From a virus, in the IMG/VR virus record IMGVR_UViG_3300035633_000040, positions 1 to 33,580 of that record: a DNA stretch of 33,580 nucleotides. One strand, given 5' to 3'. The translations under genes and the position numbers were made by a program. The notes under the pieces are model-generated. The model had not been told where the DNA came from. It worked only from the letters and a program-made list of their open reading frames with translations, and ran no database searches. Each line of letters begins with the position of its first letter. Positions within the stretch are counted from its first letter, which is position 1. Below, in pieces: positions 17,982 through 22,409 of the stretch.

Positions 17982-18380
17982 CTAATTATTTACCACATAC
18001 GCCGGGCCGTCATTCCCGGCAAGCTCTTTCACCATGCCGCGCGACATCCAATGCGCCATGATGGTTTTGGTGATCTCTGACATATCCCAAAACTTTTGTC
18101 CCTCGGCATCATAAACACCACCCTTGAAAATCAATTTTTTTGGTGCCAAATCCTCGGCGATAAACTCAACAATCCTTGTGATCAATCCGGTCTCTCTGTG
18201 ATCCGGGTTGGTAAACCAATAAATCGCTTGAAAATAATTTTCAAATTCTTGGTCCTCATACATGGCCACATCCACAAACCCTTTCACATTGTCGCAATAA
18301 TAACCATGAGGATCACCATCGGTCACCGCTACATAATACCGAACGCGATCATCGGTCACACGTGTCTTTCTAATGGTCAT
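17982..18380 (-). CDS. Hypothetical protein, 132 aa (possibly GNAT-like)
   Basis: I choose ATG 18380, which overlaps the upstream TGA as ATGA, rather than an earlier start at 18434. The alternating strands and the stretch FTNPDHRETGLITRIVEFIAE followed by PKKLIFKG and a late aromatic QKFW recall the acetyl-CoA-binding half of GNAT acetyltransferases, but the key R/QxxGxG/A loop is not clear, so the call is weak. It follows the lysis genes. Several phages carry acetyltransferase-like proteins in this place; the substrate is unknown. Confidence 0.5.
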   Translation of the reverse strand: MTIRKTRVTDDRVRYYVAVTDGDPHGYYCDNVKGFVDVAMYEDQEFENYFQAIYWFTNPDHRETGLITRIVEFIAEDLAPKKLIFKGGVYDAEGQKFWDMSEITKTIMAHWMSRGMVKELAGNDGPAYVVNN

Positions 18381-18829
18381 TTGATCAAGTCGTTTATGAG
18401 GTAACCACCAAACACCGCCACCGCTATTTTCCAACCAACACCTTTCTTTCGAGTTGACTCAATGGCCATCGGATAAAGTTGTTCAACCCGCTCCATCAAT
18501 CGGTCAATTTGGGCGTTCTGATTATCCATGATCATTTGATTGTTTTGGTTTACCTGAGAGAGCAAATTGATTGTTTGCGTTTGAGTAAAAATTATTTTTT
18601 CACTCTCCTCAAGTGTGATCCGCAATGTGTCAATTGTAGCTCTTGCCGTGTCGATGGCATCAATGAGATAATTCCAAGACTCAATTGGAGCAACCATCAT
18701 GTTTTCATGTTGCACCACATACCCTTTCGGGACTCGCTTGGCCTCTTGGGCATTACAAACGTTTGAGAGAATCAACACGGCCAAGAGTGCGATTCCACTT
18801 TTCAAGATTTTTGCGATTGATGCGATCAT
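18377..18829 (-). CDS. Spanin-like protein with N-terminal signal and C-terminal membrane helix
   Basis: ATG 18829 is the first ATG; an upstream GTG (18886) would put 19 basic residues before the signal. The 150-residue product starts with an export signal (about residues 9-28, LKSGIALLAVLILSNVCNA, with a Cys near the cleavage site but no canonical lipobox), continues with a long coiled-coil region rich in Gln/Asn (about 70-120) and ends with a hydrophobic helix (about 133-147, GWKIAVAVFGGYLIN). A periplasm-spanning protein anchored at both ends is the layout of u-spanins. It overlaps the i-spanin candidate gene by 77 bases in another frame, as Rz/Rz1 pairs do. Confidence 0.55.
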   Translation of the reverse strand: MIASIAKILKSGIALLAVLILSNVCNAQEAKRVPKGYVVQHENMMVAPIESWNYLIDAIDTARATIDTLRITLEESEKIIFTQTQTINLLSQVNQNNQMIMDNQNAQIDRLMERVEQLYPMAIESTRKKGVGWKIAVAVFGGYLINDLIK

Positions 18830-19076
18830 ATTTTTCAAGGTTCTTTTTGATCTGAATTGTCTCCTTAATGTTTTGCTCCACTTCACTCAAAAGTGAATCG
18901 TTTTCCAAGTGTAACTCCCGGACCTCCATGGTCAAAGAATCGATGGACTCCATCAAATCCTTTTGTTCCTCTTTTAATCGCTTGCGCTCCTCCGCTCCGG
19001 TTCGACTTCCAATAATCACCAACACTCCAACAATAAGAATGGCAACTAAAATCAGCACGGAAAAAGCATCTTTCAT
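18753..19076 (-). CDS. Putative i-spanin (Rz-like)
   Basis: ATG 19076 overlaps the endolysin TGA as ATGA, giving 107 residues. The N-terminal membrane helix (residues 4-24, AFSVLILVAILIVGVLVIIGS) is followed by a long charged coiled coil (EERKRLKEEQKDLMESIDSL and onward to residue 95). This is the usual shape of Rz inner-membrane spanin subunits, which with an outer-membrane partner fuse the two membranes at the end of lysis. Position directly after the endolysin and overlap with a second spanin-like gene support the call; sequence similarity was not tested. Confidence 0.65.
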   Translation of the reverse strand: MKDAFSVLILVAILIVGVLVIIGSRTGAEERKRLKEEQKDLMESIDSLTMEVRELHLENDSLLSEVEQNIKETIQIKKNLEKYDRINRKNLEKWNRTLGRVDSLKRL

Positions 19077-19693
19077 TTGACAAAAAGAGTATATGAGAAA
19101 ATGTCGGTTCTCCATTTATACATTGCCTTTTTAATCAAGGCCATGACCACCACAAAATCCTCGTCTCTTTGGAACACTTGGCACCCGGCCGAGTATGCTC
19201 CAACCTTTTCAATCTCATTGATGAATGATGTCGTGTGAAGATTTAGCCCGGTGACGTTTCCCCACTTTTTGCCATCAACATCAAACTCACCATCCGAATC
19301 ATTGTCTCTCCAAACTTTAAACGGTGATCCGTTTTGTCGGAGGGCTTCATATTTCCCCGAGTGTAGCCCAAATTTCCAACAACGAATGTATTGACCCGGA
19401 ACAAGAATGGCCGTCCCGTTTTTGTTTCCTAACTTCTTTTTGAGGTAATAAAGACCCGGTTTGGTCGTACCTTTAAACTCCATGACAACCGGATTTCCAA
19501 AGCCATCCACAAACGCAATTCCAAGCACGTCATTGAACTCATCAACAACATCATATCCATCACGGATTCCAAAGATGTTCAACGCGTATGGATCAACAAA
19601 AAATTGATATCCGTTTGCATCATACATCATTCTAATTTGTTCGTATCTACTCAGCATTGCCGCCGCCATATCCGTCAATTTTTCTTGAGCCAT
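19073..19693 (-). CDS. Putative endolysin with YkuD-like (L,D-transpeptidase fold) active-site motif
   Basis: A 206-residue protein without signal peptide or membrane helix. The region GLNLHTTSFINEIEKVGAYS AGC (residues 149-171) contains His153, then Ser168-Ala-Gly-Cys171 with 14 residues between His and Ser: the spacing of the YkuD motif HX14-17[S/T]HGC, with Ala in place of the second His. The usual Asp/Gly-rich strand WRDNDSDGEFDV precedes it. YkuD enzymes act on L,D peptide bonds of peptidoglycan, so hydrolysis of cross-links would suit an endolysin. It lies between a candidate holin and spanins. The start may be at a later Met (19669 or 19657), which would reduce the 47-base overlap with the holin gene. 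Confidence 0.65.
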   Translation of the reverse strand: MAQEKLTDMAAAMLSRYEQIRMMYDANGYQFFVDPYALNIFGIRDGYDVVDEFNDVLGIAFVDGFGNPVVMEFKGTTKPGLYYLKKKLGNKNGTAILVPGQYIRCWKFGLHSGKYEALRQNGSPFKVWRDNDSDGEFDVDGKKWGNVTGLNLHTTSFINEIEKVGAYSAGCQVFQRDEDFVVVMALIKKAMYKWRTDIFSYTLFVK

Positions 19694-20775: not shown

Positions 20776-21357
20776 TTAGATGGTCTTTATCTCATCAATT
20801 TTCGCGCCGCTAATGTCCCCGGTTGAGTCTTGTGCGTCCGGTGTCACGGTCACAAATGCGGCCGGCAACCCTTGAATGGCCGGACCTCCCGGAATGTATT
20901 GACTTGCAAAATCTTGAACCTCTCCCTTGAAATCATTGAATGCTTGAACTAATGCATCATGATCATCTTTCAATTGATTGTACGCCGTTTCAAGTTCTGA
21001 ATATCTCACCATAAAATCGGTGTCTCCACCGACCTCCATGGTGCCATCATTTCTCATGATAATGTCAATCGACAATGTGTCTCCGGCTTCATTGGTTGAA
21101 AAAACTCGTTTTTCCCCAACATTAAGACCATCCAAAACAACCGGGTTCAAATACCCTATGATGACCGAGTTTCCACGTTCTCCGGTTGGCATGTGCAATG
21201 CTTTATAGCCGACCGGAACCAAGCTCTCATCCCCAAAAGAGGAAACAAGGAAAGAGGTTTGTGTGTCTACTTGACCAAACCTCACAATCTTAATCGCTCG
21301 AAAATCCTCCTCAATTAGATTCTCATTTGTGTCCGCTATTCTTGCCGCAATCATCAT
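20776..21357 (-). CDS. Baseplate spike protein (Mu gp45-like)
   Basis: A 193-residue protein with an OB-like N-terminal part: VDTQTSFLVSSFGDESLVPVG and GERGNSVIIGYLNP (about residues 30-72) have the pattern of Mu gp45/gpV-type spikes. A beta-helix-like tract DTLSIDIIMRNDGTMEVGGD (93-112) follows, then a coiled coil (YSELETAYNQLKDDHDALV) and a C-terminal tail. Such trimers form the membrane-piercing tip beneath the hub. It is coupled by ATGA to the hub gene, the usual P-45 arrangement. Confidence 0.75.
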   Translation of the reverse strand: MMIAARIADTNENLIEEDFRAIKIVRFGQVDTQTSFLVSSFGDESLVPVGYKALHMPTGERGNSVIIGYLNPVVLDGLNVGEKRVFSTNEAGDTLSIDIIMRNDGTMEVGGDTDFMVRYSELETAYNQLKDDHDALVQAFNDFKGEVQDFASQYIPGGPAIQGLPAAFVTVTPDAQDSTGDISGAKIDEIKTI

Positions 21358-22409
21358 ACATCAAAGAAGTTGACCGGGTCTTGGTCATTGTAGACCTCGG
21401 GAATTACACAATTGATTGATGCCGTCTCTTTTTGACTGTCAAAACTAAGTGACACCGACTCCACAAAGAACTTTGTTTTTTGAAACAAAAACAATCGTGG
21501 TGCCTCCACTTCAATCACGGTGTTTGGACGTATTATTTGACGATCTCGATCATTAACCCAATACCACCGATCCAACTCAATGTTGAGTTTTATGTTCTTG
21601 TACTCTTGAGCGGCGGCACGCCTTACCGCTTGACGCGTGTTGACATCCGTTCCGCTTGATTGCTCTTTCACGACTGATCGAAAAGTGTTGATAACAAATG
21701 GATTGTTGAATGTTTCTTGCGCTCGGTTGCTCCCTTTGATTTGAGATTGCTTTTGAACTGTGATGTCCGAATGCATCCCTTGACCGCTTGTTTGCAAATT
21801 CATTTTAATCCCGGGGGCTCCATCGATAAATGATGCAATCGGCTCGGATAAGGCCCCATTTTGAGCCAATACGATGTCCCCATTCGAATCATGGGTAAGA
21901 ATCAAATTCTTTTGGGCCGCCGTTTTGCTAATGAATCCCGCAACCGTTTCGTTTGTTTCGGCTGTTATTTTATTTATTACCTCATCCGCCACGGATGCGG
22001 CCTCATCTTGGACCACCAAACCAATCCCAAAAGGCGCAATGAGCTTTTCACATATTTGACGCAAAGTCAAACCACGCAACTCCAACGGGTATTCGGTCAC
22101 CGGAACATTGCTATCACCCAACACACCGCTTTTTGAATAACCCGAAAGAGTCACAAGTTCTTGAGCGGGTCCCGCCGGAAATGTGTTTCCAAGTCCGGTT
22201 CCCGTTATTAATATTTCACCGGTTTCAATATCTGTCAAGATCACCTCCGGGAATGAAAGTGGCTTGAACAATTGAACGTGATCCGGGTTTTGATCGTCAA
22301 AATATGCTTGCAAAGAAAAGGTTGATCCAATCTTGTCATAATTTAATTGAACCGATCCCGATTGGAAAAACTCAAAGTCTCTCCCCGATATGTTAAGTTT
22401 GACCGCCAT
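21354..22409 (-). CDS. Baseplate hub protein (Mu gp44/P, gpD-like)
   Basis: A 351-residue protein with the hub layout: an N-terminal beta domain including PLSFPEVILTDIETGEILITG (about residues 49-69), a LysM-less middle with LRGLTLRQICEKLIAPFGI (110-128), the VAGFISKTAAQKNLILTHDSNG segment (156-177) typical of hub proteins, and a C-terminal beta region preceding VSLSFDSQKETASINCV (about 322-338). It makes the ring linking tail tube and spike in contractile tails. It lies between the gpN-like gene and the spike gene. Confidence 0.8.
   Translation of the reverse strand: MAVKLNISGRDFEFFQSGSVQLNYDKIGSTFSLQAYFDDQNPDHVQLFKPLSFPEVILTDIETGEILITGTGLGNTFPAGPAQELVTLSGYSKSGVLGDSNVPVTEYPLELRGLTLRQICEKLIAPFGIGLVVQDEAASVADEVINKITAETNETVAGFISKTAAQKNLILTHDSNGDIVLAQNGALSEPIASFIDGAPGIKMNLQTSGQGMHSDITVQKQSQIKGSNRAQETFNNPFVINTFRSVVKEQSSGTDVNTRQAVRRAAAQEYKNIKLNIELDRWYWVNDRDRQIIRPNTVIEVEAPRLFLFQKTKFFVESVSLSFDSQKETASINCVIPEVYNDQDPVNFFDV

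Follow-up and report, generated by a model that had tools for sequence, protein, structure and literature searches.

The window analysed here is the whole of a virus record in IMG/VR, 33,580 bases long, so the genome may be incomplete. Its ORF listing contains, on the minus strand, the gene of a 206-residue protein (hereinafter, the window protein). A first-pass annotation had placed an endolysin gene here with exact coordinates and had not given the strand. His153 and Ser168-Ala-Gly-Cys171 are present as it described, with 14 residues between His and Ser. Across the ORFs of the window there is a single instance of the relaxed form H-x14-17-[ST]-x-G-C; because 0.32 occurrences are already expected in shuffled window ORFs, the motif alone is not significant. 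By itself it is near chance and weak evidence, and its significance comes from its conservation. The window protein consists of a catalytic domain only and is best explained as a soluble, signal-less, single-domain enzyme.

The gene upstream overlaps the start of the enzyme gene by 47 bases. Its small membrane-type product, a putative holin, has no family match in Pfam/NCBIfam or PHROGs. Downstream, the second spanin candidate gene overlaps the first, and its product has a signal/TM-like N-terminus, a coiled coil and a hydrophobic C-terminus. The first-pass annotation had located the enzyme between holin and spanin, which the window shows only in part: on the downstream side, layout and weak PHROG matches make the genes Rz-like, whereas on the upstream side the small membrane protein lacks a family match.

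Upstream of the enzyme gene, and running in the same direction, are the tape measure, baseplate wedge and hub genes of a contractile-tail module. The phrog_5226 and hub genes stand at 20776..22409; therefore, the cassette comes after the late tail genes. The same two genes also lie upstream of an enzyme homolog at locus L015, whose phage has baseplate genes in common with the window. At that locus, a Peptidase_C92 gene (permuted papain-like amidase; L015:6528-7055) directly follows the enzyme homolog. The lysis cassette is much clearer in relatives than in the window.

Table 1. Features at the locus (positions in the window)
Feature	Position	Strand	Basis or remark
Probable YkuD-like endolysin gene, 206 aa, stop included	19073..19693	-	ATG at 19693, stop at 19073; phrog_3000, phrog_33083, AF2 model
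His153 codon	19235..19237	-	Putative catalytic base; invariant across the extended family
Ser168-Ala169-Gly170-Cys171	19181..19192	-	Putative nucleophile loop, with Cys171 as nucleophile
His111 codon	19361..19363	-	Second family-invariant His (108/108 and extended family)
Holin candidate, small membrane-type protein, 125 aa	19647..20024	-	Upstream of the YkuD-like gene
i-spanin candidate, N-terminal TM helix and coiled coil	18753..19115	-	Hydropathy; weak match to phrog_739 'Rz-like spanin' (E=0.0035)
Second spanin candidate	18377..18829	-	Layout; weak match to phrog_214 'Rz-like spanin' (E=0.0069)
Upstream end of tail module: phrog_5226 protein and baseplate hub	20776..22409	-	phrog_5226 (E=1e-20), phrog_177 (E=1.4e-46)

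A protein family with a conserved S-x-G-C motif

The window protein has no match in Pfam or NCBIfam, including YkuD (PF03734) and YkuD_2 (PF13645), so that the match to the PF03734 HMM named in the first-pass annotation is not found, nor is one to any other curated family. PDB sequence searches with the window protein and with alignments A1, A2 and A3 returned nothing, or chance matches (nanobodies, an ABC transporter). In PHROGs, phrog_3000 (function unknown) matches residues 47-203 with E=5.2e-24, and the C-terminus of phrog_33083 ('endolysin') matches with E=3e-10. Both families match gp35 of Pseudoalteromonas phage ACA1 more strongly than the window protein. The window protein belongs to phrog_3000 over most of its length, and the phrog_3000 records give no mechanism or fold.

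A tblastn search with the window protein identified homologs in crAss-like phages (crAss002 gp5, cr8_1, cr107_1, cr127_1, cr271_1, Rudgehvirus, ctcc615), in Bacteroides phages DAC16/SJC03 and their relatives, in Pseudoalteromonas phages ACA1/ACA2 and in two records of megaphage size. Scanning viral contigs with the single protein as query gave nothing, whereas an alignment query gave hundreds among the matches listed. Specifically, at least 569 family members were confirmed among the 600 candidate stretches listed for viral contigs, and 259 of 297 candidate stretches were confirmed in genome contigs. The closest bacterial relatives, at 50-58% identity, are from Bacteroidota (Carboxylicivirga, Cyclobacteriaceae, Aureivirga, Flavobacteriales); a host from this phylum is therefore probable.

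In alignment A2 (108 sequences), no substitution occurs at H153, S168 or G170, and C171 and A169 are each present in 107 of the 108. R44, D55, H111, Q120, R129, D130 and N151 are invariant as well. The retrieval patterns of A2 contained the motif, and two motif-independent sets therefore served as a control. The first comprises ten phage proteins from tblastn, each with S-[A/L]-G-C; the second comes from 297 Bacteroidota genomes searched with a profile, 13 of which were positive, with SLGC or SAGC in the distant members. When close and distant members are aligned jointly, R44, H111, R129, N151, H153, S168 and G170 still show no variation, and C171 is conserved at 99%. A few family members have SEGC or SLGC in place of SAGC. 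Read from these alignments, SxGC is a trait of the whole family and no peculiarity of the window protein. A single Bacteroidota genome (G061) has four copies (L273, L282, L284, L285) of a remote branch in which the motif is S-L-G-C and the His-Cys spacing is short.

Fold and relation to L,D-transpeptidases

The window protein was modelled by AlphaFold2 from the 108 sequences with pLDDT of 95.3 and pTM of 0.90, and a compact 185-residue relative was modelled with pLDDT of 97.7. In a PDB structure search, the top match of the window protein is the YkuD-family amide hydrolase DpaA/YafK (PDB 8ikr; PMC10653827), a weak match with E=0.084, probability 0.85 and a TM-score of about 0.4; the rest is noise. 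The top match of the compact relative is LDTGo, the Gluconobacter 1,3 L,D-transpeptidase (PDB 8qzg; PMC10864386, PMC10727944), with E=2.7e-3 and probability 0.99. Among its 11 best PDB chains, ten belong to L,D-transpeptidases (LDTGo, LdtMt2, LdtMt1, V. cholerae LdtA) and the remaining one to DpaA. The similarity is distant, with TM-scores of 0.31-0.47 and about 10% identity. At the end of the domain, the models contain a strand with the His, S-x-G-C, a short strand, a helix and a final strand, in the same order as in YkuD.

Local hhalign comparison with the YkuD and YkuD_2 alignments is not significant (probability about 1%), and the profile-profile probabilities overall are 1-8%; the same procedure gives 97% for YkuD versus DpaA and 35% for YkuD versus YkuD_2. 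The best local alignment with either family is nevertheless the His and SxGC stretch, in register, unlike the reversed control. Of the full YkuD motif H-x-x14-17-[S/T]-H-G-C, the family has the His, Ser, Gly, Cys and spacing, while the second His is Ala in 107 of 108 sequences. The derivation from a YkuD fold that the first-pass annotation suggested thus agrees with the structure search, which ranks L,D-transpeptidases and DpaA first at low TM-scores. The models support the catalytic domain as a strongly diverged YkuD-type fold, at best a distant variant.

Membership in the DUF5675 (PF18925) class was considered and rejected: there is no Pfam match, hhalign gives 5-8%, and the fold match to a DUF5675 phage protein is weak. 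Aligned separately, DUF5675 proteins (L182-L188, L245-L262) reach 70% probability against YkuD by hhalign, which suggests that DUF5675 is also a YkuD relative.

LDTGo, a cell-wall enzyme of bacterial origin, has a belt and a capping loop. Its His/Cys pair, H245/C264, is spaced similarly to H153/C171 of the window protein, but it differs from the family in having TM-scores of 0.36-0.47, 10% identity and no sequence match. DpaA is a hydrolase and no transferase, and it releases Braun's lipoprotein (PMC10653827). Unlike the window protein, it has only 7 residues between His and Cys; TM-scores are 0.38-0.40. The Tlde1 T6SS effectors (PF10908; PMC9638812) use an altered L,D-transpeptidase fold as a peptidoglycan toxin. 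Tlde1a ranks 30th in the fold search with the compact relative, and one A1 member has a weak Pfam match to PF10908 (E=0.03); in contrast to the family, Tlde1 keeps SHGC, has disulfides and is delivered by T6SS. Ten phage lytic proteins with a YkuD domain have already been catalogued in PhaLP (PMC8310338). Those proteins match cd16913/PF03734/PF10908, whereas the present family is below the cut-off of any Pfam model. YkuD-type phage lytic proteins are therefore known as such; what is new is a widespread variant that has no curated domain model and fills published gaps. It should be labelled a YkuD-like endolysin family rather than a PF03734 member.

The first-pass annotation also suggested that Ala in place of the second His turns a transferase into a hydrolase. 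As stated, this is unsupported: because the Ala is family-wide and S-x-G-C is known in DpaA and LDTGo, it is no proof of such a switch. LDTGo, a known transferase, has Glu262 two residues before Cys264 (PMC10864386). The hydrolase DpaA has S-I-G-C, with Ile at position -2 from Cys. With Glu in LDTGo, Ile in DpaA and several residues in YkuD_2 proteins at this position, Ala was discarded as a mark of hydrolases.

Genomic slot, domain fusions and proposed role

In phage HP1, the stretch from the tail tube gene to orf26 contains hol, lys and an Rz-like spanin gene. The family gene is located between the tail tube gene and the chaperone or tape measure gene in 23 P2/HP1-like loci, some of them near-identical pairs; HP1-type lys, looked for in the same loci, was found in 0 of the 23. 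The loci include those of Microbulbifer, Hahella, Methylophaga, Shewanella, Thalassotalea and Pseudoalteromonas, among others. Holin neighbours were found in two of these loci that were checked, in each case downstream of the enzyme gene: an HP1-family holin (PF16080, E=3e-19) in L034 and GTA_holin_3TM (PF11351, E=8e-23) in L045. At L143, a textbook-looking set with no family match adjoins the enzyme: one small TM protein, one with a TM segment and a coil, and one with a lipobox. Across 60 loci, small membrane proteins adjoin 58% of viral homologs versus 30% of other genes on the same contigs; none of 5,000 resamplings was as high, the relatedness of the loci being uncorrected in this figure. 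Many P2-like loci also have a small DksA/TraR-type zinc-finger gene between the tail tube and the enzyme (L034:5750-5983, PF01258; L104, L106, L115, L120, L123, L138, L143).

ACA1 gp35 (L263:21970-22590), annotated as hypothetical, is a family member located between the tail tube and the chaperone, that is, in the HP1 lysis slot. The ACA1 annotation has two holins and no endolysin, and the ACA1/ACA2 paper states that the endolysin is unidentified (PMC10612066). By its family and position, gp35 is a candidate for the endolysin that its authors could not find. Likewise, crAss002 gp5 (L003:3246-3860) is a family member, and the crAss002 record annotates a holin and no endolysin. Gp5 and its equivalents in other Intestiviridae are located upstream of terminase, with two small genes between. 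The hypothetical proteins of this family in crAss-like phages are probable endolysins.

Fusions point in the same direction. PG_binding_1 is fused N-terminally to the family domain in six proteins (L102, L118, L161, L052, L027, L276) and C-terminally in one (L278). In a 642-kb phage (L010, LR756502; 2011-3553), the family domain is the C-terminal part of a gp5-like protein with an N-terminal match to 'baseplate hub subunit and tail lysozyme', and it stands where T4 gp5 has its lysozyme. Slot and fusions in relatives support the endolysin role that had been proposed. With the ORF, the conservation of the motif and the fold-level similarity, they are the direct results on which our reading is built: we consider it likely that the gene encodes a phage endolysin of the Cys-dependent L,D-endopeptidase type on a divergent YkuD fold. 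Its product is very probably the enzyme with which the phage cuts the host wall late in infection. The family to which it belongs is large, distantly related to bacterial L,D-transpeptidases and present in crAss-like, P2-like and other phages without an identified lysis enzyme.

The protein could instead be a genuine L,D-transpeptidase, or a carboxypeptidase, with a role in peptidoglycan editing, for instance to alter or reinforce the wall, or to block superinfection or rival lysins. The closest solved fold, LDTGo, is a transferase, YkuD enzymes often transfer or trim, and the family has copies on bacterial chromosomes. We nevertheless regard an editing enzyme as improbable, given that the family gene occupies the endolysin slot of HP1-like phages in which HP1-type lys was found in none, that holins adjoin it, that ACA1 has no other annotated endolysin, and that the family domain holds the lysozyme position in the hub protein. 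That same hub fusion would fit a virion-associated tail lysin acting in entry rather than exit, as would the position among tail genes in P2-like phages and after baseplate genes in the window. Against this stand the occurrence of the enzyme as a stand-alone protein with holin- and spanin-like neighbours, and the lysis cassette in the corresponding slot of HP1; moreover, the ACA1 annotation marks several proteins detected by mass spectrometry, and gp35 is not among them. We judge a tail lysin to be just as improbable.

Slightly less improbable, though still unlikely, is a Cys/His hydrolase of unrelated fold with a convergent likeness to YkuD, a reading that draws on the low TM-scores and the missing sequence-profile link. 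A convergent origin does not sit easily with L,D-transpeptidases dominating an unsupervised PDB ranking, with the YkuD-like order of His strand, S-x-G-C, strand, helix and strand, or with the in-register local hhalign alignments on H...SxGC with YkuD and YkuD_2.

For the preferred reading, an L,D-endopeptidase endolysin, we infer a mechanism that extends to catalysis, hydrolysis over transfer, the cleaved bond and dependence on a holin. The holin would open the membrane and let the enzyme reach the periplasm, where it would cut stem peptides of peptidoglycan at the end of infection. Cys171, activated by His153 as base, would act as nucleophile on a stem-peptide carbonyl of L configuration, with the S-x-G-C turn as the oxyanion site. 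The invariant R44, H111, R129 and N151 may line or support the active site; His111 is possibly the third active-site residue, and H111 and R129 are candidates for the function of the missing second His. The acyl-enzyme would be resolved by water rather than passed on, resulting in L,D-endopeptidase activity. In LDTGo-type enzymes, cleavage or transfer takes place at L-Ala1; LDTBcn, which is related to LDTGo, is clearly active as an L,D-endopeptidase on cross-linked muropeptides, at the same bond as the phage endopeptidase KP27 (PMC10864386). For this reason, L-Ala1-D-Glu2 is a reasonable first guess for the cleaved bond; mDAP3-D-Ala4 inside cross-links is the other candidate.

More tentatively, and with rather less confidence than the role of the single gene, the family might be read as a widespread phage lysin superfamily that arose from an LDTGo-like L,D-transpeptidase. 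It would be a dedicated L,D-endopeptidase, probably for L-Ala-D-Glu, that lacks the second catalytic His and perhaps uses His111/Arg129 instead. Its members would be the hitherto unrecognised endolysins of many Bacteroidota phages, of crAss-like intestiviruses and of P2-like phages of the ACA type, and would be present in megaphage baseplate hubs as well. Endolysins are usually recognised by domain models, and phages with an unmodelled family seem to be without a lysis enzyme; naming the family makes the lysis systems of ACA1/ACA2 and crAss002 testable. The family would add a mechanism that relies on Cys, which is uncommon in phage lysins, and offer a natural experiment in which an L,D-transpeptidase fold becomes a hydrolase.

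Because some homologs (L093-L098) are chromosomal in bacteria and distant from obvious phage genes, and because one is a virion-hub domain, the family is not endolysins only. The chromosomal homologs of Aureivirga (L095/L098) and of L093, L096 and L097 are 51-58% identical, with no obvious phage genes around, and those of Aureivirga adjoin a 505-aa protein with a weak PG_binding_1 match. A chromosomal copy in Polaribacter (L113:5986-6549) has SAGT for SAGC and has thus lost the nucleophile; it is possibly inactive or repurposed.
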